From: Lachnospiraceae bacterium
GTDB lineage: Bacteria > Bacillota > Clostridia > Lachnospirales > Lachnospiraceae
Reading direction: 5' to 3'
DNA length: 32,942 nucleotides
Assembly (NCBI GenBank): GCA_017463225.1
Contig: JAFTPO010000028.1
Coordinates: forward strand, 1 to 32,942
Position numbers and translations under genes: made by a program. A model generated the notes under the pieces. That model was not told the DNA's origin and did no database searches. It saw only the letters and a program-made list of their open reading frames with translations. Positions 8,586 through 24,106 of the stretch are shown here, in pieces. Numbering within the stretch: the first letter of the stretch is position 1; every line of letters begins with the position of its first letter.

Positions 8586-8606
8586 CTATCAGGAGGTGCC
8601 TGATAG
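8586..8606 (+). promoter_or_regulatory. Intercistronic hairpin holding a decoy Shine-Dalgarno sequence
   Basis: CTATCAGG (8586-8593) and CCTGATAG (8599-8606) form a perfect 8-bp stem with loop AGGTG. The strong ribosome-site sequence AGGAGGTG lies within the stem and loop, and an out-of-use GTG at 8596 is part of it. No T-tract follows, so it is not a simple terminator. It may be an mRNA processing or stability element, or a translation control point between leuB and ilvD. Confidence 0.5.
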
Positions 8607-8628
8607 CAAAATAAAAGGAGACGATAAA

Positions 8629-10290
8629 ATGAAGAGTGATAACGTAAAAACAGGTATGCAGCAGGCTCCACACAGAAGCTTGTTTAACGCACTTGGAATG
8701 ACAGAGGAAGAGCTTTCTAAGCCATTAGTTGGTATCGTTTGCTCATACAATGAGATTGTTCCAGGTCACATGAACCTTGATAAGATAGCTCAGGCTGTTA
8801 AGCTTGGAGTTGCCGCAGCAGGCGGTACACCTATTATGTTCCCTGCTATCGCAGTATGTGATGGTATTGCTATGGGACATATCGGTATGAAGTATTCTCT
8901 TGTAACAAGAGATTTGATTGCAGATTCAACTGAGGCTATGGCATTAGCTCATCAGTTTGATGCCCTTGTTATGATTCCTAACTGTGATAAGAATGTTCCA
9001 GGACTTCTTATGGCAGCAGCAAGAGTAAATGTTCCAACTGTGTTTGTATCAGGTGGTCCAATGCTTGCAGGTCATGTTAAGGGTCATAAGACTTCCCTTT
9101 CATCTATGTTCGAGGCTGTTGGTTCATACGCAGCAGGAACAATGACTGAGGATGATGTTAAGGATTTTGAGTGTAATGCTTGTCCAACCTGTGGTTCATG
9201 CTCAGGTATGTACACAGCAAACTCTATGAACTGTCTTACTGAGGCACTTGGTATGGGACTTCCTGGTAATGGTACAATCCCAGCAGTATACTCAGAGAGA
9301 ATTAAGCTTGCTAAGCACGCTGGTATGGCAGTTATGGAGATGTATAGGAAGAATATCAGACCAAGAGATATTATCACTAAGGATGCAATCTTAAATGCAC
9401 TTACAGTAGATATGGCACTTGGATGTTCAACAAACTCTATGTTACATATTCCTGCAATTGCACATGAAATCGGATTTGATTTTGATATTGCTATGGCAAA
9501 TGAAATCAGTGCTAAGACACCTAACCTTTGTCATCTTGCTCCAGCAGGTCCTACATATATGGAAGACTTAAATGAGGCCGGTGGTGTGTATGCAGTTATG
9601 AATCAGCTTAAGGAGTTAGGACTTCTTAAGGAGGATTGTATGACTGTAACAGGTAAGACAATCGGTGAGGCTGTTGATGGAGTGAAGAATAGAAATCCAG
9701 AGGTTATAAGACCTCTTGATAATCCATATAGTAAGACAGGTGGTCTTGCAGTACTTAAGGGTAACCTTGCACCAGATGGATCTGTTGTTAAGCGTTCAGC
9801 AGTTGTTGCAGAGATGATGCAGCATGAGGGACCAGCAAGAGTATTCGAGTGTGAAGAGGATGCAATCGCTGCAATTAAGGGTGGTAAGATTGTAGCAGGA
9901 GATGTAGTAGTAATCAGATATGAGGGTCCTAAGGGTGGTCCTGGTATGAGAGAAATGCTTAACCCAACATCAGCTATCGCTGGTATGGGACTTGGCTCTA
10001 CAGTAGCTCTTATCACTGATGGACGTTTCTCAGGAGCAAGCCGTGGAGCTTCTATCGGACACGTTTCACCTGAGGCAGCTGTGGGCGGACCAATCGCTCT
10101 TATTGAAGAGGGAGATATCATTTCCATCGATATCGAGGCTTGTACATTAAATGTTAAGCTTTCAGATGAGGAATTAGCTGCTCGTAAGGCTAAATGGCAG
10201 CCAAGAGAGCCAAAGGTAACTACAGGATATCTTGCAAGATACGCTAAGATGGTAACTTCAGGTAACAGAGGAGCTGTACTTGAGTTCTAG
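8629..10290 (+). CDS. ilvD: Dihydroxy-acid dehydratase, 553 aa
   Basis: The ATG at 8629 follows AAAAGGAG at 8612-8619. The frame is open up to a GTG at 8596 that lies in a hairpin and is rejected. Family Fe-S cysteines are visible in [14 protein letters not shown], in PNCDKNVPG (Cys119) and in the cluster [11 protein letters not shown] (Cys185, 188, 191). The C-terminal region carries the GGPGMREML and [11 protein letters not shown] signatures. The length matches the IlvD/Edd family. It dehydrates 2,3-dihydroxy-isovalerate and 2,3-dihydroxy-3-methylvalerate to the keto acids for valine/leucine and isoleucine. The enzyme is oxygen-sensitive in most bacteria, fitting an anaerobe. It lies between leuB and ilvB in the same run. 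Confidence 0.96.
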
Positions 10291-10387
10291 TTGCAAGGAT
10301 ATATAATAAAGATGTGTTAATAAAAAGAAAACTATAAACTAAGAATTAAAGTCCAAGGACTTAAGTTAGATAAAAAGGAGAATGACC

Positions 10388-12070
10388 ATGAAACAATTAA
10401 CAGGCTCAGAAATTATTATTGAGTGCTTAAAAGAGCAGGGCGTTGACACGGTATTTGGTTATCCAGGTGGAACCATACTTAACGTATATGATGCACTTTA
10501 CAAGCACCAGGATGAAATCAATCACATTTTAACCTCTCATGAGCAGGGCGCAGCTCACGCAGCAGACGGTTATGCAAGAGCAACAGGTAAGGTTGGTGTA
10601 TGTATGGCTACATCAGGCCCTGGTGCTACAAACCTTGTAACAGGTATTGCAACAGCATATATGGATTCTATTCCTGTTGTAGCAATTACAGCTAACGTAG
10701 GTGTATCACTTCTTGGTAAGGACAGCTTCCAGGAGGTTGATATCGCAGGAGTGGTAATGCCTATTACAAAGCACAGCTTCATCGTTAAGAATGTACACGA
10801 GCTTGCAGATACAATTAGAAGAGCATTTAAGATTGCACAGACTGGTAGACCAGGCCCTGTACTTGTGGATGTAACTAAGGATGTTACAGCTAATGTTGCA
10901 GACTTCGAGCCTAAGGCACCAGAACCAATCGAGAGAAAGGTTACATCAATTAAGGCTGACAGTCTTGATGATGCAATCAGAATGATTGAGAAGGCTAAGA
11001 GACCATTTATCTTAGCAGGTGGTGGTGTTATTACAGCAGGTGCAACTGAGGAGTTAAAGAAGTTCGCTGAGAAGATTGACGCTCCAGTATGTGATACTCT
11101 TATGGGTAAGGGTGCATTTGACAATACAAGTGACAGATATACAGGAATGATTGGTATGCATGGTACAAAGGTATCAAACTTTGCTGTTAATAAGGCTGAC
11201 CTTGTAATCGTTGTTGGCGCAAGATTCTCAGACAGAGTTATCGGTAATGCAGATAAGTTTGCAGTAAATGCAAAGATTATCCATATAGATGTAGATCCAG
11301 CTGAGATTGATAAGAATATCTTAGTTGAGTGTAGCGTAATCGGAGATGCTAAGGAAGTTCTCAAGATGATTTCTTCAAGAGTTAAGTCAGCTGACCATAA
11401 GGATTGGATGGATCAGATAGCTGAGCTTAAAGAGAAGTTCCCATGTGTAGATGACTACAATGAGTTCTCAGGCCCTGGTATTATCAATAAGATTTACGAG
11501 GTAACAGAGGGTAAGGCTACAATTACTACAGATGTTGGACAGCACCAGATGTGGGCTGCACAGCACTACAAGTACACTCGTCCAAGACAGCTTCTTAGCT
11601 CAGGCGGACTTGGTACTATGGGATTCGGTCTTGGTGCTTGTATGGGTGCTAAGGTTGGTATGCCAGAGAATATTACAATCAATATCGCTGGTGATGGATG
11701 CTTCAGAATGAACATGCAGGAGGTTGCTACAGCAGCCAGATACAACATTCCAATAATCGAGGTTGTTATTAATAACCACGTACTTGGTATGGTTAGACAG
11801 TGGCAGACATTGTTCTATGACAAGAGATATTCTAATACAATACTTAATGATGGTGTTGATTTCGTTAAGGTTGCAGAGGCTCTTGGTGCTACAGGTATGA
11901 GAGCAACAAATCTTGCAGAGTTTGAGGATGCACTTAAGAAGGCTATAGAGATGAATAAGCCAGTTGTTATCGAGTGCTTAATTGACCAGGATGATAAGGT
12001 ATGGCCAATGGTTGCAGCAGGTGCAGCACTTGAGACTTGCTTCGATAAGAACGATTTAGAGAATAAGTAA
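10388..12070 (+). CDS. ilvB: Acetolactate synthase, large (catalytic) subunit, 560 aa
   Basis: The ATG at 10388 is 7 bases from GGAG at 10377-10380. The in-frame ATG at 10382 is too close to the ribosome site. Thiamine-diphosphate enzyme features are in order: catalytic Glu52 in SHEQGAAHAADGYAR, the central FAD/nucleotide domain, and the ThDP motif GDG at about 435-437 followed by NMQE and INNHVLGMVRQWQ. The RQWQ segment is typical of anabolic acetohydroxyacid synthases rather than catabolic AlsS. It condenses pyruvate with pyruvate or 2-ketobutyrate. No regulatory small subunit (ilvN/ilvH) or ilvC is adjacent, so these must be elsewhere if present. A 97-base gap from ilvD contains a short AAGTCC-AA-GGACTT inverted repeat. 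Confidence 0.95.
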   Translation: MKQLTGSEIIIECLKEQGVDTVFGYPGGTILNVYDALYKHQDEINHILTSHEQGAAHAADGYARATGKVGVCMATSGPGATNLVTGIATAYMDSIPVVAITANVGVSLLGKDSFQEVDIAGVVMPITKHSFIVKNVHELADTIRRAFKIAQTGRPGPVLVDVTKDVTANVADFEPKAPEPIERKVTSIKADSLDDAIRMIEKAKRPFILAGGGVITAGATEELKKFAEKIDAPVCDTLMGKGAFDNTSDRYTGMIGMHGTKVSNFAVNKADLVIVVGARFSDRVIGNADKFAVNAKIIHIDVDPAEIDKNILVECSVIGDAKEVLKMISSRVKSADHKDWMDQIAELKEKFPCVDDYNEFSGPGIINKIYEVTEGKATITTDVGQHQMWAAQHYKYTRPRQLLSSGGLGTMGFGLGACMGAKVGMPENITINIAGDGCFRMNMQEVATAARYNIPIIEVVINNHVLGMVRQWQTLFYDKRYSNTILNDGVDFVKVAEALGATGMRATNLAEFEDALKKAIEMNKPVVIECLIDQDDKVWPMVAAGAALETCFDKNDLENK

Positions 12071-12088
12071 TTAAGGGAGGATTTAAAA

Positions 12089-13171
12089 ATGGCAAGAGTA
12101 TTTAATTTTTCAGCAGGACCTTCAGTTTTACCTGAGGTAGTTTTAAAGCAGTGTGCAGAGGATATGATGGATTACAAGGGCTCAGGAATGAGTGTTATGG
12201 AGATGAGCCATCGTTCAAAGGTATACGATAACATCATCAAGGAAGCAGAGCAGGATTTAAGAGATCTCTTAGAGATTCCTGACAATTACAAGGTGCTTTT
12301 CCTTCAGGGTGGTGCTTCACAGCAGTTCGCAGCTGTACCACTTAACCTTATGAAGAATGGTGTTGCTGATTATATTATCACTGGACAGTGGGCTAAGAAG
12401 GCATATGAAGAGGCTCAGAAGTACGGTAAGGCAAATGCTATCGCTTCTTCAGCAGATAAGACCTTCTCATATATTCCAGATTGTTCAGACCTTCCTATAT
12501 CAGAGGATGCAGATTATGTACATATCTGCCACAACAATACAATCTACGGAACTACATTTAAGGAGCTTCCTAACACTAAGGGTAAGATTCTTGTAGCTGA
12601 TATGTCATCAGACATTCTTTCACAGCCTGTAAATGTATCAGATTACGGTATGATTTACTTTGGTGTTCAGAAGAACGTTGGACCAGCAGGTGTTGTTATT
12701 GCAATCATCAGAGAAGACTTAATCAGAGATGATGTAAATCCAGCAACTCCTACAATGCTTAAGTATAAGACTCAGGCTGACAACGATTCTCTTTACAATA
12801 CACCTCCATGCTACGGTATCTACGTATGTGGTCTTGTATTCAAGTGGGTTAAGGAGATGGGTGGCCTTGCTGCTATGAAGGTTCACAATGAGAAGAAGGC
12901 AGCTATCCTTTATGATTTCCTTGATTCTTCAAAGATGTTCAAGGGAACAGTTGAGAAGAAGGATCGTTCACTTATGAATGTACCATTCGTAACTGGTAAC
13001 GATGACCTTGACGCTAAGTTCGTTAAGGAAGCAACAGCAGCAGGCTTTGTAAACCTTAAGGGACACAGATCAGTAGGTGGTATGAGAGCATCTATCTACA
13101 ATGCTATGCCAATCGAGGGCGTAGAGAAGCTTGTACAGTTCATGAAGGACTTCGAAGCAGCAAATTCATAA
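12089..13171 (+). CDS. serC: Phosphoserine aminotransferase, 360 aa
   Basis: The ATG follows GGGAGG with an 18-base gap from ilvB. The start FNFSAGPSVLPEVVL and the phrase GSGMSVMEMSHRS are SerC signatures. The PLP Lys is Lys195 in YFGVQKNVGPAGV, and the C-terminal GHRSVGGMRASIYNAMP binds the substrate phosphate. It is a fold-type I aminotransferase converting 3-phosphohydroxypyruvate and glutamate to phosphoserine in the cytoplasm. It pairs with serA directly downstream. serB is not present here. Its position inside a branched-chain amino-acid run suggests coordinated amino-acid supply. Confidence 0.96.
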   Translation: MARVFNFSAGPSVLPEVVLKQCAEDMMDYKGSGMSVMEMSHRSKVYDNIIKEAEQDLRDLLEIPDNYKVLFLQGGASQQFAAVPLNLMKNGVADYIITGQWAKKAYEEAQKYGKANAIASSADKTFSYIPDCSDLPISEDADYVHICHNNTIYGTTFKELPNTKGKILVADMSSDILSQPVNVSDYGMIYFGVQKNVGPAGVVIAIIREDLIRDDVNPATPTMLKYKTQADNDSLYNTPPCYGIYVCGLVFKWVKEMGGLAAMKVHNEKKAAILYDFLDSSKMFKGTVEKKDRSLMNVPFVTGNDDLDAKFVKEATAAGFVNLKGHRSVGGMRASIYNAMPIEGVEKLVQFMKDFEAANS

Positions 13172-13192
13172 GAATTAAGGGAGAGAATAAAA

Positions 13193-14353
13193 ATGACAAA
13201 GATAAATTGCTTAAATCCTATAGCAGCTTGCGGTATGGATTTATTTACAGATAATTATGAGACAGTAGACAATTTTGCAGATGCTGAGGCAGTTTTAGTT
13301 AGAAGTGCTTCTATGCACGAGCTTGAGCTTTCAGACAACCTTCTTTCAGTAGCTAGAGCAGGTGCTGGTGTTAACAATATTCCACTTGATAAGTGCGCTG
13401 AGAAGGGTATCGTAGTATTCAACACTCCAGGTGCTAACGCTAATGGTGTTAAGGAGCTTGTTATCGCAGGTCTTATGCTTGCAAGCCGTGACCTTATGGG
13501 TGGATATAACTGGGTTAAGGAGAACGCTACAGTAGAGACACTTGCTAAGGATGTTGAGAAGCAGAAGGCTAAGTATGCTGGTAACGAGGTTATGGGTAAG
13601 AAGCTTGGTGTTATCGGTCTTGGTGCTATCGGTGCTAAGGTTGCAAATGCAGCTACTCATCTTGGTATGGATGTATATGGTTATGACCCATATGTTTCAG
13701 TTGATGCAGCTTGGATGCTTTCTAGAAACGTAAAGCACATTACTAATGTAGAAGATATCTATAGAGAGTGTGATTATATTACGCTTCACGTTCCAGCTCT
13801 TGATTCAACAAAGGGTATGATTAATGCTGATGCTATGGCTATGATGAAGGACGGAGTTAAGATTCTTAACTTCTCAAGAGATGCCCTTGTAAATGATGCA
13901 GATATGCTTGCTGCACTTGATTCAGGAAAGGTTGCAAGATATGTAACTGACTTCCCTAATGCAGTAATCGCAGGACATGATAAGGTTGTTACACTTCCAC
14001 ACCTTGGTGCTTCAACTGAGGAGTCAGAGGATAACTGTGCTATTATGGCTGTTAAGCAGACTAAGGACTTTATCGAGAATGGTAATATTAAGAACTCTGT
14101 AAACTACCCAGCATGTGACGCAGGTAAGTGTACAGCAGCTTCAAGACTTACAGTATGCCACAAGAATATTCCTAACATGCTTACTAGATTTACAGGTGCA
14201 TTCTCAGATAAGGGAATCAACGTATCAGATATGGTAAGTAAGTCAAGAGGAGATTGGGCATACACAATCCTTGATACAGCAGAGAAGGCTGATGCAGATA
14301 TGGTTAAGACTATCGAGGCTATCGACGGCGTTGTTAAGGTAAGAGTATTGTAA
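13193..14353 (+). CDS. serA: D-3-phosphoglycerate dehydrogenase, 386 aa, with C-terminal ACT-like domain
   Basis: The ATG follows AAGGGAGAG with a 21-base gap from serC. This is a D-2-hydroxyacid dehydrogenase: an N-terminal substrate domain, NAD-binding GVIGLGAIGAKV (residues 139-150), catalytic Arg229 in NFSRDALV and catalytic His270 in LPHLGASTEESEDNCA. Residues from about 315 form an ACT-like regulatory domain (NIPNMLTRFTGAFSDKGINV), which in this family can bind serine. It catalyses the first step of serine synthesis from 3-phosphoglycerate. Oddity: the loop FPNAVIAGHDK before the His lacks the Glu that normally belongs to the Arg-Glu-His triad. Related dehydrogenases usually have Glu there. 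The SerA assignment is helped by serC next door. Confidence 0.93.
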   Translation: MTKINCLNPIAACGMDLFTDNYETVDNFADAEAVLVRSASMHELELSDNLLSVARAGAGVNNIPLDKCAEKGIVVFNTPGANANGVKELVIAGLMLASRDLMGGYNWVKENATVETLAKDVEKQKAKYAGNEVMGKKLGVIGLGAIGAKVANAATHLGMDVYGYDPYVSVDAAWMLSRNVKHITNVEDIYRECDYITLHVPALDSTKGMINADAMAMMKDGVKILNFSRDALVNDADMLAALDSGKVARYVTDFPNAVIAGHDKVVTLPHLGASTEESEDNCAIMAVKQTKDFIENGNIKNSVNYPACDAGKCTAASRLTVCHKNIPNMLTRFTGAFSDKGINVSDMVSKSRGDWAYTILDTAEKADADMVKTIEAIDGVVKVRVL

Positions 14354-14369
14354 TGTGCGCGTAGCAATG

Positions 14370-14491
14370 AGCCATGCACAGATGAGCGTAATATGGCTGT
14401 TGTGAGCTTGTTCACAATCAGACATATTTAAGCGAAGATGTATACGGCGAATGCCGCGACAGTGAGCAAGCTTGCTTGCGAACCTGTCGGC
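14370..14491 (+). repeat. Palindrome-rich intergenic region between serA and asd
   Basis: Within 167 non-coding bases several inverted repeats are packed. AGCCAT/ATGGCT is at 14370-14375 and 14393-14398. TTGTGA/TCACAA is at 14400-14417. CGGC/GCCG is at 14445-14456. CGACAG/CTGTCG (14457-14462 and 14484-14489) encloses the 12-bp perfect palindrome AGCAAGCTTGCT at 14465-14476. The GC-richer composition differs from the flanking genes. It resembles an extragenic palindromic repeat. It could also be an mRNA processing or partial-termination region. No T-tract is present. Confidence 0.45.
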
Positions 14492-14520
14492 ATGGTATTA
14501 AATTTTGGAGGATTTATAAA

Positions 14521-15606
14521 ATGAGTGATAAGTTAAAGGTTGGTATCCTTGGTGGTACCGGTATGGTTGGACAGCGTTTTATCGCATTACTTGAGAATCA
14601 TCCTTGGTTTGAGGTAACTACAATTGCAGCAAGCCCAAGAAGTGCTGGTAAGACTTACGCAGAGGCAGTAGGCGACAGATGGAAGATGACTACTCCAATG
14701 CCAGAGGCTGTTAAGAACCTTGTAGTATACAATGTAAATGAGGTTGAGAAGGTTGCAGCTACAGTAGACTTCGTATTCTCAGCAGTAGATATGTCTAAGG
14801 ACGAGATTAAGGCTATTGAGGATGCATATGCTAAGACTGAGACTCCTGTAGTTTCTAATAACTCAGCACACAGATGGACACCAGATGTTCCTATGGTAGT
14901 GCCTGAGATTAACCCAGACCACATGAAGGTTATTGACTTCCAGAAGAAGAGACTTGGTACAACTAGAGGATTTGTTGCAGTTAAGCCTAACTGTTCAATT
15001 CAGTCATATGCACCAGTTCTTACTGCTTGGAAGGAGTTTGAGCCATATGAGGTAGTTGCTACAACATATCAGGCTATATCAGGTGCTGGTAAGACATTTA
15101 AGGATTGGCCAGAGATGGTTGAGAATATCATTCCATTCATCGGTGGTGAGGAAGAGAAGTCTGAGAAGGAGCCACTTAGAATCTGGGGTAAGATTGAGGA
15201 TGGCGTAATCGTTCCAGCGGATGATGTAAAGATTACATGTCAGTGTATCAGAGTTCCAGTTCTTAATGGACATACTGCAGCAGTATTTGTTAAGTTTAGA
15301 AAGCAGCCTACTAAGGAGCAGCTTATCCAGAAGTTAGTAGAGTTCAAGGGTGCACCTCAGGAGTTAGGACTTCCAAGTGCTCCAAAGCAGTTCATCCAGT
15401 ATATGGAGGAGGACAACAGACCACAGGTTACTCTTGATGTTGACTACGAGAACGGAATGGGTGTAAGCGTAGGACGTATCCGTGAGGATTCAATCTATGA
15501 TTGGAAGTTTGTTGGACTTTCACACAACACTGTAAGAGGAGCAGCAGGTGGCGCAGTTCTTTGCGCTGAGCTTCTTAAGGCACAGGGATATATTACTAAG
15601 AAATAA
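14521..15606 (+). CDS. asd: Aspartate-semialdehyde dehydrogenase, 361 aa
   Basis: The ATG at 14521 follows TTGGAGG. The frame is open upstream into the palindromic region but has no ribosome site there. The NADP-binding start GILGGTGMVGQRF, catalytic Cys158 in KPNCSIQSY and active-site His251 in LNGHTAAV are visible. The sequence is of the longer archaeal/fungal-like Asd type (about 350-360 residues). It reduces aspartyl phosphate to aspartate semialdehyde, feeding lysine, diaminopimelate, methionine, threonine and so isoleucine, which links it to the ilv genes upstream. It ends the eight-gene run. A strong terminator follows. Confidence 0.95.
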   Translation: MSDKLKVGILGGTGMVGQRFIALLENHPWFEVTTIAASPRSAGKTYAEAVGDRWKMTTPMPEAVKNLVVYNVNEVEKVAATVDFVFSAVDMSKDEIKAIEDAYAKTETPVVSNNSAHRWTPDVPMVVPEINPDHMKVIDFQKKRLGTTRGFVAVKPNCSIQSYAPVLTAWKEFEPYEVVATTYQAISGAGKTFKDWPEMVENIIPFIGGEEEKSEKEPLRIWGKIEDGVIVPADDVKITCQCIRVPVLNGHTAAVFVKFRKQPTKEQLIQKLVEFKGAPQELGLPSAPKQFIQYMEEDNRPQVTLDVDYENGMGVSVGRIREDSIYDWKFVGLSHNTVRGAAGGAVLCAELLKAQGYITKK

Positions 15607-15621
15607 TAAGGAAATTATATA

Positions 15622-15661
15622 AAAGAGATAAGCATTGTCGCGGTGCTTATCTCTTTGTTTT
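15622..15661 (+). terminator. Rho-independent terminator after asd
   Basis: A perfect 13-bp stem (AAAGAGATAAGCA at 15622-15634, TGCTTATCTCTTT at 15644-15656) with a 9-base loop is followed by TTTGTTTT. It is the first clear terminator after leuC and so marks the end of the amino-acid operon. Confidence 0.9.
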
Positions 15662-15759
15662 ATGTAAACTAGTTTTTTATTATATAAATTTTTAAAGAAA
15701 TTCTAAAAAACCCAACAATTATCATTTTTAATCTGTCTATATATATGTAAAAAAATAAA

Positions 15760-15833: not shown

Positions 15834-16823
15834 ATGAAGAAGAAAATTTTAGTATTAGCAATGTGTTTAAGTATTGTAGGTGCCATAACAGGCTGTGGGG
15901 ATGACAAGAAAAAGGAAAATGAGAAAGTAGATTCAAAGACTACTACAGAGGCAGTGGTTAATGATGATACTGCTGTAGCAGATACAACTACTGAGGCATC
16001 TTCTGAAAGCGTAGAAGAAGCAGAAGGAACAGGAACCTGTTGGATTATGGAGCAGGATTTATCACTGTCTACAATTGCCTCACCTACGGATGCATTAACC
16101 ATGTGTGTAACAGCACATGCTATAGATAGTGAAGATAATGTTGAGTTGCCTATAAAAGCAGATTATTTTAATAGATTCACCTATGTGGGAGTAGATGATG
16201 TACAATATGCTTCTGTGGAGGAAGCCCTTGCATCTGACTCATGTCAAAAAATGGTAAAGCCAGAAGACACAAGTGATAAAATAGGCTATGGTCCTACAAC
16301 AGAGTTTTATAATGATAAGTATATTCCTACATATGGTCATATTTCAGTTATGAATCCTACAGGTGAAGAGGTTACATACGCCGAGTGTGTAGAAAATGGC
16401 TGGTTTTATGTGGAGAATCCTTATGGGAGCTTTTTGAACCAGGGTAATACTGATGAAATAGGAGATTTCAATCAGGATGGAGACAATGATGATAAGGATA
16501 CATTAGATTATTATGTTAGTATATGGGGAGCTCCAACATATTTCAAAGCATATAATGTGGAGAGCCAAGAAGCCTATGATGCATCAAACACTGATGAAGG
16601 AACACAATGGTTTATTGATAATTATCGTGAGGGTGGAGTATTTATGACTGCAGTAGGTTGGGAGTTTGATGAATATGTAATATTATTTATGTTGACAGAT
16701 ACTTACTATTATGAATCATGGAATATGGAAATATCTAATTCTATTTACTACAGTAGAGTACTTTGGGATGAGTTAGGTTATTACAATGGCCTTTCATATC
16801 TTAAAGATAAATCAGGAAAGTAA
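15834..16823 (+). CDS. Lipoprotein with an EF-hand-like loop, 329 aa
   Basis: The ATG at 15834 follows AAAAGGAG. Residues 1-21 are a lipoprotein signal with lipobox ITGC and Cys21. A Lys/Glu then Thr/Glu/Ser-rich linker runs to about residue 66, and an unrecognised extracellular domain follows. Residues 211-222 (DFNQDGDNDDKD) match an EF-hand or dockerin-type calcium loop with acidic residues at positions 1, 3, 5, 9 and 12. Only one such loop is present, so it is not a dockerin. It lies 22 bases before the membrane-anchored sigma factor, which has a similar Thr/Glu/Ser linker on the outer side. It may be its partner or regulatory target. Function is unknown. Confidence 0.85.
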   Translation: MKKKILVLAMCLSIVGAITGCGDDKKKENEKVDSKTTTEAVVNDDTAVADTTTEASSESVEEAEGTGTCWIMEQDLSLSTIASPTDALTMCVTAHAIDSEDNVELPIKADYFNRFTYVGVDDVQYASVEEALASDSCQKMVKPEDTSDKIGYGPTTEFYNDKYIPTYGHISVMNPTGEEVTYAECVENGWFYVENPYGSFLNQGNTDEIGDFNQDGDNDDKDTLDYYVSIWGAPTYFKAYNVESQEAYDASNTDEGTQWFIDNYREGGVFMTAVGWEFDEYVILFMLTDTYYYESWNMEISNSIYYSRVLWDELGYYNGLSYLKDKSGK

Positions 16824-16845: not shown

Positions 16846-19323
16846 ATGGATGAACAATATATAGCACAGCTGGTTTATAATTTACAGTGTGGCGACCAGC
16901 AGGCATTTGAAGAATTATATAATCAAACCAATAAAATGGTTTACTTTATATGCAAGAATCTCCTTAATAATGAGGAGGATGCAAAGGATGTAATGCAGGA
17001 TGTATACATTACTGCCTATTATAAGATTGGTCAGCTTACTGAACTGGGTAAATTTCAGGCATGGATTAATCAGATTGCAGTAAATAAGTGTAAGAATCAT
17101 CTGGCGAAGAACAAGCCTGTACTTATGGCTCCTGAAGAGTTTAATGATACATTACTAGAGGAGAACGAGCTTTTCTTGCCAGAGGAGTACATAATCGAGA
17201 AGGAAAAACGTAAAATCATAATGAATATTATGAGAAAAAGCCTTTCAGATATACAGTATAACACAGTAATATTATACTATTTTAATGGATTATCAGTTTA
17301 CGAGATAGCTGATATTATGGAGTGTCCGCCAGGAACTGTAACCTACAGACTTAGTGTTGCTAGGGCTAAGATTAAAGAGGGAGTATTGCTGTATGAGAAC
17401 AAGAGTGAGGACAAGCTTTATTCTGTTGCAGCTATACCTTTCCTTGTCAGTCTGTTTGCAGCGGAGGCAAGCGGCTTAATAGTACCAAATGTTTTGCCGG
17501 AAATAATGACAGCTTTAACCGGTACAGCAGGTACTGTTATAGCTGGTATGACAAATGTTACATTTGCAGAGAATGTAGCTGCAGATATGAGTCAAACTAT
17601 GATGCAATCAGGAACTGAGATGATGAGTCAGGTAGGTCAGGGTATGATGCAACCAGGACAGAATATGATGAATCAGGCAGGATACGGTTCATATGAGATG
17701 CCTGCAGGTCAGGGTCAGGGTATGACACAGCCTGGTTATGAAGCATATGGTATGACGGAAGCGAGTGGAGCTCCTGTGACTACAGGTGCTGCTACAAATA
17801 TGGCATCAAATGTACCAGTGGTAGCCAAAGCTACTTCAATGGCGCTTAAAACCAAAATAGCCATAGGAATAGCATCAGTAGCCCTTCTTTGTGGAGGAAT
17901 TGCATTGGTGCTAAACATAAACAAGGATGACAAGGATAAGAATAAGGACAATAAAACTGAGACAACTACTGAACAAAGTGTTGTTAATACCACAGAGGAG
18001 GCTGAGAGCGTAACTACAGAAGTTACATCAGAGGAATCTACAGAGGAACAGCTTATTTCATCCCATTCGGGTGTTGTATCCGTATTTGATATTGGATACA
18101 ATAAAACCAGTGATGCTCCATATCTTGACGATATGATGTCTCTTAGATTCACCATGGATGGAACAAGCTATAATTTCCCTATAGATTACAGTGATTTCTT
18201 CGTAGGTTGGAAGTATGTGGATGAGTCTATGGAGGATGAGATTCAGGAAGAGATAGAATATAAGGAAGCTTTGAAGTCTATAAGTCTTGAGTCAGCAGAG
18301 TCTTCAGGCTTTTGGGTAACAAATCCTAAATATGATGAGAAGCTTCAGGTTAGAATTAATGTATCTAACTATAATAAGGAACCAGTTAAGGCTATTGATG
18401 GAACTATTAATTCAATTTATGTAGGAATGGAAGGATGTGCTACCTATCCAGAGATGATTTTCCCTGGAAATATCACATTTGGTTCCTCTATGGATGCTGT
18501 TATAGATGCATATGGTACCGATTGTATTGTAGGTGTAACAGAATATACATATCATAATACATATTCTCTTTCCTACTCCAAGGATAGTGAAGATGTTAAG
18601 GAAGAGCACAATGGTTACTACGATTACTTTGAGAGGGGAGTTAATGTAGTCTTTTCCTTTAACAATGAGAAGGAGCTTATAGCAGTAGGCTTATATATGG
18701 ATCCTAGTAAGTTTTACACAGACAGAGTATTGCTTAATGAATTTATAGCAAGTGACAAGGATTATGGGACTATGTCTTACGAGGAAGCGTATGAATATCT
18801 TAACTCTTTGCCAGCAAATTACGAGAGAAAATTCCTTTCCTCAACTGATGGTATGCCTGAGGGTGAGTGTATGATTACAGGATACCTTAGAGATGATGAG
18901 GTTATCGTTATACCTGATACAATTAATGGTAATAAGGTAACTGCTATACATGATTATGCCTTTACTGATTTGGAAAATACGGTTGCTATCAGGGTGCCTG
19001 AGACAGTAACAGTAATCGGTGATGGAGCATTTATGGAGCTTAAAACAGTTTGTGTTATAACAGGACTGGAAAATGTTGTAAGTCTAGGTTCGGTTAGTAT
19101 GGCAATAGGTGGAGATGATAGCTCAGGAACTGAGATTAAGGCAAAGATTAGGATGAATTCCTATGAGTATGCCACTAAGAAGGGAGAAAGACTAGATGAT
19201 GATGGTACTCCTTTTGGCTTTGGAAAGCTTATAATATATGCTCCTGCCGGAAGTGATTCCTATAATAATTTATTACCACATGTAAGCTCAATTGGCGATG
19301 ATATAATAGTTGAGACATATTAA
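16846..19323 (+). CDS. ECF-type sigma factor fused to a transmembrane helix and extracellular region, 825 aa
   Basis: The ATG follows AAAGGAG. Residues about 10-88 are sigma region 2 (NNEEDAKDVMQDVYITAY, FQAWINQIAVNKCKNHL). Residues 128-180 are region 4 (LSDIQYNTVILYYFNGLSVYEIA, GTVTYRLSVARAKIKE). Residues 185-330 are a hydrophobic then Met/Gln/Gly-rich linker (repeats such as GMMQPGQNMMNQ). One membrane helix lies at about 337-357 (IAIGIASVALLCGGIALVL), flanked by Lys. The outside part has a Thr/Glu/Ser linker (370-403), an unrecognised domain (410-620) and a C-terminal segment (680-755) with BspA-like leucine-rich-repeat phrases (VTAIHDYAF, VTVIGDGAF). Usual ECF factors are about 180 residues with a separate anti-sigma factor. 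Here the sensor appears built in, and no anti-sigma gene is adjacent. The frame is intact with no frameshift sign. Release of the sigma part by proteolysis, or action from the membrane, is inferred. Confidence 0.88.
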   Translation: MDEQYIAQLVYNLQCGDQQAFEELYNQTNKMVYFICKNLLNNEEDAKDVMQDVYITAYYKIGQLTELGKFQAWINQIAVNKCKNHLAKNKPVLMAPEEFNDTLLEENELFLPEEYIIEKEKRKIIMNIMRKSLSDIQYNTVILYYFNGLSVYEIADIMECPPGTVTYRLSVARAKIKEGVLLYENKSEDKLYSVAAIPFLVSLFAAEASGLIVPNVLPEIMTALTGTAGTVIAGMTNVTFAENVAADMSQTMMQSGTEMMSQVGQGMMQPGQNMMNQAGYGSYEMPAGQGQGMTQPGYEAYGMTEASGAPVTTGAATNMASNVPVVAKATSMALKTKIAIGIASVALLCGGIALVLNINKDDKDKNKDNKTETTTEQSVVNTTEEAESVTTEVTSEESTEEQLISSHSGVVSVFDIGYNKTSDAPYLDDMMSLRFTMDGTSYNFPIDYSDFFVGWKYVDESMEDEIQEEIEYKEALKSISLESAESSGFWVTNPKYDEKLQVRINVSNYNKEPVKAIDGTINSIYVGMEGCATYPEMIFPGNITFGSSMDAVIDAYGTDCIVGVTEYTYHNTYSLSYSKDSEDVKEEHNGYYDYFERGVNVVFSFNNEKELIAVGLYMDPSKFYTDRVLLNEFIASDKDYGTMSYEEAYEYLNSLPANYERKFLSSTDGMPEGECMITGYLRDDEVIVIPDTINGNKVTAIHDYAFTDLENTVAIRVPETVTVIGDGAFMELKTVCVITGLENVVSLGSVSMAIGGDDSSGTEIKAKIRMNSYEYATKKGERLDDDGTPFGFGKLIIYAPAGSDSYNNLLPHVSSIGDDIIVETY

Positions 19324-20429: not shown

Positions 20430-21758
20430 ATGAAAAGTAAAAAAGGTTTAATTTCTATAATTGTTGGAATTGTAATTATGATAGTTGGAATTATTGTTAT
20501 ATTGTTAGCTACTGGAGTGATTGGAAATAAGAATGAAAAATACAGAGTAGTGTCCGTTGATTCTTATGAAGGCGATGTTAGTCTTTCGCGAGAAAACAAA
20601 GACAGTGATCTGTTTCAGGGTATGAATCTTAAATCAGGAGATAAGATTTCAACAGGTGGAATGTCAAATGTTCTTCTATTGGCTGATTCTGATAAGTCTT
20701 TGCTTGCAGGTGAGAATACCTGTTTTACTATAGAGGCAACAGGTAATGCAAAGAAAGGTAGAATATATATTAATTTAGAGTATGGAACTGCTCTTGTTAC
20801 TATAGACAACAAATTAGCAGAAGAGGACTCCTTTGAGATAGACACTCCTAATGCTGCTTTGAGTGTTAGAGGAACAGTATTTGAGGTGACTTATAATAAG
20901 GAAACAGATGAAACCTTGCTCACTGTTAAAGAAGGATGTGTTGAGGTTGTAAATGACGTTTTATCTAAGCTTATAAATGCAGGAGAAAGTGTAGTTATTA
21001 CTAATGATGAGATTGTGTATATTGATGAAGCTGAGGATGACATTGGTGCTACGGAGGACATAAATAATTCAGATGGTACGGATTCGCAGAATGGTGATGA
21101 AGAGTCTGATAATAATGGTGGTTCTTCAATAGATTCAAAAATTTTGACAGATGGTGTTGATGAGACAGAATGGCCACTTATTCTTAAGAATGAAGCAGAG
21201 ATTGCTTCCCTTGAGTATTGTCTTGGTATTATGACAAAATGTAAGATAGATGGTCATGAAAATTATGTGGCTGAAGCCCTTATTGATTTAGATACAAATA
21301 TATATTATAAAGAACCTTTTGAATTACTTGGTCATTTTCAAGAGGGGGATTATAATTATGAATGGTTCATGGTATACTACGTTTCTAAGTTGAATAAGGT
21401 GTATGGTCTTATGCCTAATGGAGCAATAAATGAATCTAATATTCCAGAAGACGCACATATAGTAGGGGATTATTTATACATAAATACAAATGTTCCAGAA
21501 GAGTATTGTATTGCTGAGGGGGTAGATATGGATGGGCTCACAAACTATGTAGTTGCTAATTATTACCTTCCTTGCCCTATGAGTGTATCTATTGATAATG
21601 TTGATGTATCTCAATTAAATAAAATTATTATAGAATACACATATGTTCTTGGCGATAAGGATGGAAATGTTTTATATGAGAAGAGTCCATTTGTTGCATA
21701 TTTAGAGCCAGATGAAAGTGGAAGATATGTAATCACGTCAGTAGAAAAAAATAACTAA
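20430..21758 (+). CDS. Membrane-anchored FecR-domain protein, 442 aa
   Basis: The ATG at 20430 follows AAAAAGGAGG. Residues 7-31 are one hydrophobic helix after a basic start, so the rest is outside the membrane. Residues about 40-195 match the FecR beta-helix-like domain (KSGDKISTGGMSNVLLL, then TPNAALSVRGTVFEVTYN and TVKEGCVEVV). An Asp/Asn/Ser/Gly-rich acidic linker spans about 200-235, and an unrecognised domain of about 200 residues follows. In Gram-negatives FecR proteins are anti-sigma and TonB-signalling partners, but in Firmicutes FecR domains are often part of surface proteins of unknown role. No sigma gene is directly adjacent. The membrane-anchored sigma factor lies 1.1 kb upstream as a separate transcription unit. 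A PaaI thioesterase follows after 23 bases. Confidence 0.82.
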   Translation: MKSKKGLISIIVGIVIMIVGIIVILLATGVIGNKNEKYRVVSVDSYEGDVSLSRENKDSDLFQGMNLKSGDKISTGGMSNVLLLADSDKSLLAGENTCFTIEATGNAKKGRIYINLEYGTALVTIDNKLAEEDSFEIDTPNAALSVRGTVFEVTYNKETDETLLTVKEGCVEVVNDVLSKLINAGESVVITNDEIVYIDEAEDDIGATEDINNSDGTDSQNGDEESDNNGGSSIDSKILTDGVDETEWPLILKNEAEIASLEYCLGIMTKCKIDGHENYVAEALIDLDTNIYYKEPFELLGHFQEGDYNYEWFMVYYVSKLNKVYGLMPNGAINESNIPEDAHIVGDYLYINTNVPEEYCIAEGVDMDGLTNYVVANYYLPCPMSVSIDNVDVSQLNKIIIEYTYVLGDKDGNVLYEKSPFVAYLEPDESGRYVITSVEKNN

Positions 21759-22314: not shown

Positions 22315-22343
22315 TTCATAAATTAAACACATTTTGCTAATAT
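22315..22343 (+). promoter_or_regulatory. Possible promoter for the beta-helix lipoprotein gene
   Basis: TTCATA (22315-22320), a 17-base spacer and TGC-TAATAT (TAATAT at 22338-22343), an extended -10. The -35 is weak. Confidence 0.4.
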
Positions 22344-22378
22344 TATGTAAAAAAATACAAAAGAAGGAAGTGCTTGAT

Positions 22379-24106
22379 ATGAGGAAAAACAAACTACGAA
22401 AATCTATGCTTATAATGGGAATAGGCCTAACTATGTTAGGGCTTGGAGCATGTAATAAAGCATCGGAGGATACTACTACCGTAACGGAACTTGATTCTAC
22501 AATTGCTATAGACACTTCGCAGAATGGTGACGCAGATGCTAACACTGTTCAAGGAGAAGATGAAGTTGTGGAAATTGTTCTAAGTGATTCTGGGATTACT
22601 GTAGATGAAGTAGCTGTAAGCAGTGATACATCTGAGTCAGTATATGTGGCAAATGATATAATATATTATGAGACTGGCAAGGATTTTACCTATGGTGAAG
22701 GTACTGAAGCTGATGCTCACGACTCGGAGGAAGCATTAAACCATACAGTAGTTCATATTACAAAGCCAGGTACATATAATGTTAGCGGAAAGCTGTCCAA
22801 GGGACAAATAGCCGTTGATTTAGGAGAGGATGCAAAGGATAATCCTGAAGCAGTTGTAACTCTTATTATGGATAATGCTGATATAACCTGTGATGTTGCC
22901 CCGGCAGTTATATTCTACAGTGTGTATGAGTGTGGAAATGATGATGCTGACAGCGCCTCAAAGGATGTGGATACAACCGAGGCAGGTGCCAATGTAATTA
23001 TAGCAGATGATTCTACTAATACAGTAAATGGTTCTTATGTAGCAAAGATATATAAGCCAGACAGTGTGGTGTTAAGTGAAGATAAAGCAGAAGTGGTAGA
23101 TTCAAGCAAGCTTCATAAGTATGATGGTGCTTTCTATTCTAAAATGTCTATGAATATAGAAGGTGGCCAAAATAGTAATGGTGTTCTCAACATCAACGCG
23201 GAAAACGAGGGCTTAGACAGTGAACTTCATCTTACAATAAATGGTGGGATTATTAATATTAATTCTGGTAATGATGGAATTAACACCAATGAAGATGGTG
23301 TATCTGTTACAACTATCAATGGGGGTAGTGTAAATATATTGGTTAACGGAGATACAGGCGAAGGAGACGGCATAGATTCCAATGGATGGCTTGTTATAAA
23401 TGGCGGTAAGGTTACAGCCCAGGCCTGCTCTGACAGTGCAGATGCGGGAATAGACTCTGATATGGGTATACATATAACTGGTGGAACTGTAATGGCAACT
23501 GGTCATATGCTTGACAGAATAGAGGATGGTGGACAGACCTATGCTGTATTTAATTTCAATGGAAAGCAGACTCTGGAAGAGACAGTATATTTAAAGGATG
23601 AAAGTGATGCTATAGTTATGGAAGCATGCCCAGATAATGCATATTCTGTAATGATATATAGTAGTCCTGAGCTTGTCAGTGGCATATATACCTTATGGAG
23701 TGGCGATACACAGCTAGCTAATCAAGGAGGTACAATGGGAGGACCTGGCAATAACGGAATGAATCAGGATGGAATGACACCGCCAGAGGGAATGGAAATG
23801 CCAGAAGGAATGGAACCACCAGAGGGGATGGAAATGCCAGAAGGAATGGAACCACCGGAAGGAATGGAGAAACCAGAGGGTATGGAACCGCCTGAGGGAA
23901 TGGAGATGCCGGAAGGGATGGAACCACCACAGGGAATGGAGATGCCGGAAGGGATGGAACCACCACAGGATGGTGAAAGACCGGACAAACCGGAAGATAA
24001 TAATGGAGATTTTATGAATCCTAATAATCAGGGGAATTATACACAAGAAAAAACATATGAATTCCAGATTAATGAAGGAGCTAATATGTTTGGTGGGATA
24101 AGCTAA
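22379..24106 (+). CDS. Cthe_2159-type carbohydrate-binding beta-helix lipoprotein with hexapeptide repeat tail, 575 aa
   Basis: The ATG at 22379 follows AAGAAGGAAG. The frame is open upstream to 22334 without a ribosome site. A signal with lipobox LGAC is followed by a Thr/Asp-rich linker. From about residue 115 the sequence matches, by recall, the Cthe_2159 domain, a calcium-binding right-handed beta-helix that binds polygalacturonate: HITKPGTYNVSGKLSKGQI, then turns such as LNINAENEGLDSE, ININSGNDGINTNED, GEGDGIDSNGWLVINGG and DAGIDSDMGIHITGG. Residues about 468-530 are ten PEGME-type hexads, then a charged Asn-rich end. There is no sortase signal or membrane helix at the C-terminus. It is likely a surface glycan-binding or adhesive lipoprotein. 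No pectinase genes are adjacent. Its own terminator follows. Confidence 0.86.
   Translation: MRKNKLRKSMLIMGIGLTMLGLGACNKASEDTTTVTELDSTIAIDTSQNGDADANTVQGEDEVVEIVLSDSGITVDEVAVSSDTSESVYVANDIIYYETGKDFTYGEGTEADAHDSEEALNHTVVHITKPGTYNVSGKLSKGQIAVDLGEDAKDNPEAVVTLIMDNADITCDVAPAVIFYSVYECGNDDADSASKDVDTTEAGANVIIADDSTNTVNGSYVAKIYKPDSVVLSEDKAEVVDSSKLHKYDGAFYSKMSMNIEGGQNSNGVLNINAENEGLDSELHLTINGGIININSGNDGINTNEDGVSVTTINGGSVNILVNGDTGEGDGIDSNGWLVINGGKVTAQACSDSADAGIDSDMGIHITGGTVMATGHMLDRIEDGGQTYAVFNFNGKQTLEETVYLKDESDAIVMEACPDNAYSVMIYSSPELVSGIYTLWSGDTQLANQGGTMGGPGNNGMNQDGMTPPEGMEMPEGMEPPEGMEMPEGMEPPEGMEKPEGMEPPEGMEMPEGMEPPQGMEMPEGMEPPQDGERPDKPEDNNGDFMNPNNQGNYTQEKTYEFQINEGANMFGGIS
23780..23968 (+). repeat. In-frame 18-bp tandem repeat (10.5 units) encoding PPEGME/MPEGME
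   Basis: Ten hexapeptide units alternate PPEGME and MPEGME, with one KPEGME and one PPQGME, then a final PPQ. Together they make 63 codons. The 36-bp double unit is the better repeat period. Synonymous changes between units (CCAGAGGGA, CCAGAAGGA, CCGGAAGGG) show the array is not freshly expanded throughout, but two 3' double units are almost identical. Confidence 0.92.

Follow-up and report, generated by a model that had tools for sequence, protein, structure and literature searches.

How does an extracytoplasmic function (ECF) sigma factor receive its signal when no anti-sigma gene stands beside it? Signal transduction by ECF sigma factors usually runs through a separate anti-sigma receptor. 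We analysed a 32,942-nucleotide stretch of DNA from a Lachnospiraceae bacterium (contig JAFTPO010000028.1 of assembly GCA_017463225.1; hereafter the window), in which a single gene at 16846..19323 joins an ECF sigma factor to a membrane helix and a large domain predicted to lie outside the cell. Our explanation, taken whole, is that this sigma factor is its own membrane receptor, is released by proteolysis and drives its own operon; we put its probability at about 0.6. The parts that can be read from sequence are the domain order, its conservation, the orientation in the membrane, the exchange of modules, the homology of a neighbouring lipoprotein and a shared promoter.

Sigma factor and sensor in one chain

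As a preliminary description of the window had stated, the gene is a single intact frame of 825 codons; it starts with ATG and has one stop, at its end. Its parts are as follows.

16846..19323, + strand: membrane-anchored ECF sigma factor with outside domain, 825 amino acids (aa); ATG start, no internal stop
16915..17115, + strand: sigma region 2, aa 24-90 (Pfam Sigma70_r2)
17239..17379, + strand: sigma region 4, aa 132-178 (Pfam)
17407..17496, + strand: post-sigma segment, aa 188-217, hydrophobic and conserved, containing KLYSVAAIPFLVSLFAAEASGLIVP; possibly an anti-sigma helix within the chain
17497..17850, + strand: low-complexity cytoplasmic linker, Met/Gln/Gly/Ala-rich, about aa 218-335, with a short tandem repeat inside
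17851..17919, + strand: predicted membrane helix, aa 336-358, TKIAIGIASVALLCGGIALVLNI
17920..18057, + strand: outside stalk, charged and Thr/Glu-rich, aa 359-404 (read from the sequence)
18058..18840, + strand: outside domain 1, aa 405-665, no named family (Pfam scan, profile comparisons)
18841..19320, + strand: outside domain 2, aa 666-825, like BspA-type leucine-rich repeats (LRR) (weak Pfam match and relatives' matches)

The sigma part is complete. Pfam detected Sigma70_r2 at aa 24-90 (46.3 bits, cut-off 24) and Sigma70_r4_2 at aa 141-176 (33.7 bits, cut-off 25.7). The sigma part of a 41-row family profile aligned over its full length with solved sigma factors, at positions 5-182 with SigW (5wuq, E 9.5e-36) and 8-182 with E. 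coli sigma-E (1or7, E 3.2e-33). Regions 2 and 4 of an ECF (group 4) sigma factor are both present, and no other sigma region was recognised. Region 2 has not decayed among the relatives either, with Sigma70_r2 found in 71 of 72 family members.

Beyond the sigma part, the domain order described at the outset also stood. The linker is rich in Met, Gln and Gly (A17 M16 G16 T15 Q10 of 118 at residues 219-336), and the most hydrophobic window of the protein lies at 338-356. About 467 residues are predicted outside, close to the 460 estimated earlier, and they do end in LRR-like sequence: the LRR_5 match at aa 696-734 scores 20.7 bits, under the Pfam cut-off of 27.7, and that of a relative (L127) exceeds it at 28.2 bits. 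Matches to this C-terminal stretch occur in open frames of 45 of the 149 other Lachnospiraceae genomes; the search with the outside domains gave any match in 47 of 150 genomes, a count that includes the window's own genome and one genome matching outside domain 1 only.

Codon differences fit selection on a working protein. Compared with a relative whose sigma factor is 98% alike (L044), there are 33 synonymous and 4 non-synonymous differences in the 180 codons of the sigma region, 18 and 17 in the 118 codons of the linker, and 47 and 28 in the 261 codons of outside domain 1. The linker of this relative exceeds that of the window by a repeat-like stretch. We also observed that the LRR part (18841-19320) differs from it at 15 of 480 bases and outside domain 1 at 93 of 783; the low divergence of the LRR part may reflect recent recombination.

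A family with variable outside domains

The joining of sigma factor and sensor, first pointed out for this one gene, is common to 107 distinct proteins. The window's genome itself encodes a paralogue of the same layout (60% identity over residues 3-226). Many long-frame relatives occur among 37 genomes of the genus, from which 40 regions were fetched, giving 43 sigma open reading frames (ORFs) with the window's included. The full set of 107 non-duplicate proteins comprises 105 from other genomes and two from the window's genome; 105 of the 107 are at least 400 aa long, one further pair is 99% alike, and 47 representatives lie below 60% sigma identity. Outside Lachnospiraceae, 8 of 291 genomes of the class gave matches to the family profile that reach model position 200 or beyond, in frames of 396-796 aa. 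Named relatives are mostly metagenome-assembled genomes (MAGs) of Lachnospiraceae, several labelled rumen, cecum or rectum, together with Ruminococcus bromii 5AMG, Eubacterium sp. MSJ-21 and the chromosome of Ruminococcus sp. FMBCY1.

Similar sigma factors carry dissimilar outside parts. Those of 72 proteins, a few of them cut off by contig or locus ends, fall into 35 clusters. Two proteins of one genome (L056 and L059 in G035) have sigma factors 90% alike and outside parts that share just a 42-residue stretch. In two adjacent copies at another locus (L063) the sigma factors are 97% alike, and the outside parts, 142 and 254 aa long, have only 65 residues in common, at 38%. A third pair (L217 and L219) shows the converse: the sigma factors are 54% alike, the stretch from the end of sigma region 4 through the membrane helix 98%, and the remainder 81%. 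These comparisons indicate that the outside domain is swapped behind a conserved sigma chassis, with exchange at the sigma 4 boundary.

A lipoprotein gene in the same unit

The sigma gene appears not to stand alone.

15834..16823, + strand: lipoprotein, 329 aa when read from this ATG (signal peptide and lipobox recognised by eye; homology to relatives' outside domains)

As far as protein families show, the absence of an adjacent anti-sigma gene was correctly noted. The preliminary description left out this co-oriented gene, which ends 22 nt upstream of the sigma gene and belongs to the unit; we infer that the two form one transcript. A profile of the lipoprotein aligned over 176 columns with outside domains from one cluster of near relatives (hhalign probability 97.8, E 9.8e-13), and a homologue flanks the sigma gene in 5 of the 43 sigma ORFs, the window's included, four times upstream and once downstream. 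A second type of lipoprotein precedes the sigma gene in one relative (L046), and its tail precedes the first type in another (L044). The same domain would then be either fused to the sigma factor or encoded next to its gene, which ties the lipoprotein to the same function; it may take part in the signalling. Outside domain 1 of the window protein matched neither the lipoprotein nor the relatives' outside domains, a comparison made with a profile of two near-identical sequences, so that distant kinship is possible.

The operon carries its own ECF-type promoter

Two further features lie upstream of the lipoprotein gene.

15622..15656, + strand: downstream of asd, a terminator-like stem with a T-rich run behind it; 4 such in the window against 2.4 expected, not significant alone
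15711..15747, + strand: ECF-type promoter CCCAAC-N18-GTCTATATATATG of the lipoprotein-sigma operon, inferred to be autoregulatory

ECF promoters typically combine an AAC-containing -35 with a GTC-type -10. The window's operon carries both elements. Aligning upstream regions recovered CCCAAC-N18-GTCTATATATATG, or close forms of it, in front of the sigma gene or of its operon's first gene; in the window, where 0.01 sites are expected, it sits between the terminator-like stem and the lipoprotein gene. The target promoter search proposed at the outset found a site at the head of the lipoprotein-sigma operon itself. Across the 2.77-Mb assembly the exact pattern occurs at two sites only, heading the lipoprotein-sigma operons of the window and of the paralogue. 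Allowing up to three mismatches adds one site, which carries three.

The pattern tracks sigma genes across the genus. Among the 37 genomes, 18 sites have at most two mismatches, and 15 of them stand before sigma genes or the first genes of their operons. Two of the others precede relics of sigma genes, and one (G005:C112) precedes a like lipoprotein gene at a contig end. This count excludes 13 sites with three mismatches, among them a sigma promoter (G017:C51); the reversed-pattern control gave 25 sites of all mismatch levels. The relics (L274 and L273) are of two kinds: one genome (G008) has kept the promoter and a lipoprotein gene and has an internally deleted sigma-sensor gene, and another (G007) has the promoter followed only by the tail of what looks like an LRR domain.

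Scoring of the family's upstream regions extended this result. When each family gene was scored without the training sites of its own clade, 37 of 106 came out above 12.1, a threshold chosen after seeing the controls. By sigma identity to the window, these are 16 of 24 relatives at 60% or more, 18 of 44 at 40-60% and 3 of 38 below 40%. Upstream regions of other genes exceed 12 in 6 of 214 cases, the comparison not being strictly alike since the controls were scored with a matrix built from the full 18 training sites and each family gene with a clade-reduced one. The top five of these are genes directly upstream of family sigma genes, one of them (L048) with 260 nt between the two. Against shuffled controls, 39 of 106 lie above the 99th percentile, 20 of them among the 87 non-training regions.

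A family-wide pattern, which misses most family members, gave 7 sites in 6 of 299 Lachnospiraceae genomes against 4 for its reversed control: the promoter of the window's own paralogue, one site at a soluble 1068-aa sigma fusion (L300/L307), one at an ordinary ECF gene (L303), behind which lies the gene of a putative membrane partner, and four with no sigma gene downstream. We rejected a looser pattern as a source of regulon evidence, because it matched 41 sites in the window's genome against 62 for the reversed control. Thirty of the 41 were examined: 28 lie inside ORFs, one is the window promoter and one has no gene after it.

Since the exact site is confined to the two operons and 37 of 106 family genes have a similar one upstream, autoregulation is well supported. 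There is good evidence that family sigma factors are active and self-regulating in the nearer part of the family.

Such a distribution also invites the possible, if on balance unlikely, reading that the outside part and the lipoprotein are what counts: the sigma factor would amplify the expression of its own surface protein and have few or no other targets. It is compatible with release or with action at the membrane. It would account for an exact promoter at two sigma operons only in 2.77 Mb, for the 15 of 18 genus sites before sigma genes or operons' first genes, with the rest before two relics and one lipoprotein gene, and for the 28 of 30 examined loose matches inside ORFs. However, strict patterns would miss weaker or diverged targets, so absent sites do not mean an absent regulon, and the assembly consists of 95 contigs with 97% completeness.

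The membrane helix and the orientation of the protein

The membrane anchor is a constant of the architecture. In the survey of relatives that the preliminary description had suggested, a hydrophobic segment of spanning type lies between residues 218 and 393 in 43 of 43 sigma ORFs (the window and the 40 fetched regions). On average across 72 proteins, the 15 residues preceding the helix have a net charge of +3.2 and those following it -0.5, and the preceding side is the more positive in 69 of the 72 (45 of 47 representatives). This charge bias supports a topology with a single membrane span, the sigma factor inside and the C-terminus outside.

The helix itself is of unusual composition. Glycine and alanine make up 40% of it in 107 members. 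Control helices from neighbouring genes have 11% (20 internal helices) and 14% (29 N-terminal ones), and Gly-Gly occurs in 67 of 107 members against 1 of 49 controls. That comparison required a hydropathy of 1.9 of the controls only; with an equal cut-off on both sides the values are 40% against 13%, and 60 of 98 against 1 of 49. Looser control helices reach 16% glycine and alanine, with Gly-Gly in 6 of 66. A Gly/Ala-rich helix, often with Gly-Gly, would suit intramembrane proteolysis. Helix-destabilising residues favour cleavage. Such residues are a keyword in work on RseP substrate cleavage (PMC4597795). The window's genome encodes an RseP-family protein above cut-off, which together with the helix would favour proteolytic release.

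Could the sigma factor instead work without being cut? ToxR/CadC-type regulators have a cytoplasmic N-terminal transcription domain, one span and an outside sensor. Their transcription domain is a winged-helix DNA-binding domain and that of the window protein a sigma factor; the overall layout is the same. A flexible linker could let the tethered sigma factor reach RNA polymerase, with the outside domain altering its availability. The linkers are long enough to make this conceivable (in 72 proteins, a median of 71.5 residues separates position 215 from the membrane helix), and the sigma part is complete. Simple tethering, however, has no need of a Gly/Ala-rich helix that often holds Gly-Gly, and in IutY, the closest of the studied fusions, activation is proteolytic (PMC8999054). 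We regard tethered action as decidedly unlikely.

The post-sigma segment adds a second hydrophobic stretch to the single helix first reported, which itself stands at 336-358. At 194-212 it scores 1.91, the highest of 69 proteins jointly with L044. It would be very improbable that these residues form a first span and leave both termini inside: this pair tops the 69 proteins, but only 9 of them reach 1.6 there, the median being 1.24, and relatives' C-terminal parts hold typical outside modules (LRR_5 in L127 and SH3_3 in L115, both above cut-off) or are in some cases homologous to the lipoprotein. Since so few relatives reach 1.6, the segment is probably a conserved cytoplasmic helix and not a membrane span.

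This segment seems to go with the fusion architecture. Among the profile matches listed for 299 Lachnospiraceae genomes, 48 reach model position 200 or beyond, and 46 of these lie in frames of at least 435 aa, spread over at least 36 genomes with the window's own included. The other two sit in shorter frames, of 289 aa (two stops) and 342 aa. Ordinary ECF sigma factors of 250 aa or less, among the matches listed, have alignments that end by model position 192. No solved chain aligned to the family profile extends past its position 184.

An assembly error or two-gene read-through has practically no chance of explaining the gene, because 105 distinct proteins from other genomes, among them a Ruminococcus chromosome titled complete, share the layout, and the same junction recurs in independent genomes (L219, a record titled complete genome; G018, within one contig; the 98% relative L044/L156, 840 aa).

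Proposed mechanism

We propose that the sigma factor is held in check by, and released from, its own polypeptide. The N-terminal sigma factor would lie in the cytoplasm, held at the membrane through the post-sigma segment, the flexible linker and one Gly/Ala-rich helix, with the C-terminal 467 residues outside as sensor. At rest the tethered sigma factor would be inactive, the post-sigma segment perhaps packing on it as a built-in anti-sigma helix. The outside domain would sense a change, probably jointly with the lipoprotein of the same operon. Cleavage outside, then within the membrane helix by an RseP/RasP-type protease, would free the sigma factor, which would transcribe from CCCAAC-N18-GTCTATATATATG, foremost at its own lipoprotein-sigma operon and that of the paralogue.

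This account departs from the preliminary description, which had neither the lipoprotein gene nor the self-promoter. Its term one-component signalling fits only loosely, because the lipoprotein of the same apparent operon is related to neighbouring sensors and may join the signal chain. More speculatively, the linker could curb breakdown of the released fragment by ClpXP, leaving the intact sigma factor as the end point of trimming. In PMC9531181, a glycine tract beside a folded domain promoted release from ClpX and glycine-alanine repeats did not.

Several observations weigh against this account. Below 40% sigma identity, only 3 of 38 relatives show the promoter within 300 bp. The promoter class is not exclusive to the family and is also found before other ECF genes (L303, L300), and the sites found point to no target beyond self in strict-pattern scans, which weaker or diverged promoters would escape. 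Just 5 of the 43 sigma ORFs have a lipoprotein homologue next to them. The Gly-Gly pairs could promote helix pairing and not cleavage, and the RseP family matched in all 14 control genomes, above cut-off in 9, which makes its presence here weak evidence. Long frames do not always carry the post-sigma segment: among those listed, the alignments stop at model position 180-183 for five frames in genome G247 (485-933 aa) and for another of 747 aa, and at 192 for a 1060-aa fusion class, short of the segment. Family members also share descent, so the counts are non-independent.

Relation to known sigma fusions

The closest studied parallel is IutY of Pseudomonas putida (ECF243), a sigma factor fused to a membrane-bound anti-sigma factor and activated by Prc and RseP, as described in PMC8999054. 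Like the window protein, it joins an N-terminal ECF sigma factor and a membrane-spanning extension in one chain, and a span with an outside C-terminus, as in IutY, is predicted for the window protein from hydropathy and charge. Regulated intramembrane proteolysis is demonstrated for IutY and proposed here. In the same text, the IutY extension is the membrane-bound anti-sigma factor of a siderophore surface-signalling system, whereas a Pfam scan (E up to 1) found no anti-sigma or FecR domain in the window protein's extension; nor is there one among 25 of the 50 Pfam families listed for 72 members. The window protein also differs in its clostridial host and in the variable outside domains of its family.

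Other groups share parts of the layout. PMC8999054 also describes ECF48, ECF52 and ECF53 of Actinobacteria (for example SCO4117) as having a C-terminal extension with one or two membrane helices and as fusions with anti-sigma parts, SCO4117 bearing an outside carbohydrate-binding domain. Their extension has a zinc-finger domain there; Pfam found none in that of the window protein, and in the family paired C..C occurs in 7 of 72 members, always before the sigma factor. Table 2 of that source also lists ECF262 (Ruminococcus albus) and ECF288 (Blautia) as groups with C-terminal extensions, whose model members are clostridial like the window's host. ECF288 is described as cysteine-rich, which the window protein, by eye, is not. 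ECF262, compared by description only, may be the same family.

In sigma-I/RsgI of Clostridium thermocellum, also a clostridial system, several receptors serve different substrates and RseP cleaves in the membrane helix (PMC12203970). There the receptor is a separate anti-sigma protein, whereas here sigma factor and receptor share one chain. A literature search returned no paper on membrane-anchored sigma fusions of Lachnospiraceae; subscription papers and the Casas-Pastor 2021 ECF classification lay outside its reach. On these comparisons, the family looks like a clostridial variant of known membrane-spanning sigma fusions, with modular sensors and no recognisable anti-sigma domain.

Neighbouring genes and related fusions

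Genes around the operon include one FecR-domain protein. Upstream, 8596-15606 holds ilvD, the acetolactate synthase large subunit gene, serC, a phosphoglycerate-dehydrogenase-like gene and asd. Downstream of the sigma gene and a GNAT gene, 20430-21758 encodes the FecR-domain protein (35 bits, one N-terminal membrane helix), in an order that recurs in L044; it is unlikely to be an anti-sigma factor, because by eye it has hardly any cytoplasmic part. Further on, 22334-24106 encodes what by eye looks like a lipoprotein; an 18-bp repeat within it (23771-23969), present in about 11 copies, encodes GMEPPEGMEMPE-like units.

Two proteins elsewhere in the genome (L003 1201-2565 and L008 811-2229) lack a sigma factor and by eye have a similar chassis of low-complexity linker, one helix, charged TTE stalk and outside domain. 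For the first we considered, and dropped, the idea that it carries the outside domain of the window protein without a sigma factor: it matched over the whole protein at E 8.6e-16 (phmmer E 5e-11, high bias), and masking left a match of 24 residues at E 0.002. As only this stretch survives, we claim no homology.

Other sigma fusions vary the theme. A zinc-ribbon-like Cys motif lies N-terminal of the sigma factor in 7 of the 72 relatives (L120, L122, L129, L134, L136, L137 and L141), with Pfam Zn_Ribbon_1 in 6. A second, well-conserved kind (L307, L308, L309; 1059-1077 aa) joins an ECF sigma factor to about 880 residues without a membrane helix, the maximum 19-residue hydropathy being 1.2. Genome G247 has a row of five genes (L310 957-12870) with sigma-like N-termini and long extensions, 483-924 aa; four matched the family profile and the fifth was judged by eye. 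Sigma fusions from Poribacteria MAGs (L225, L226, L227; 1007-1012 aa) have a hydrophobic segment that falls between residues 223 and 273 and are perhaps an independent case.

Significance

Across widespread Clostridia, many of them known from gut and rumen MAGs, sigma factor and receptor have apparently merged into one chain whose receptor end then diversified by domain exchange. The shared promoter offers a ready reporter, with which the signal, the cleavage and the regulon become directly testable. Tentatively, and with the odds against it, the family may be a class of clostridial surface proteins that bring their own sigma factor, each a self-amplifying display switch with a swappable domain joined through a Gly/Ala-rich linker and membrane helix, its own operon as main or only target, and paralogues cross-wired; each copy would then decide the display of its own surface domain and lipoprotein. 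The architecture would also provide a modular, single-gene coupling of outside signals to transcription.

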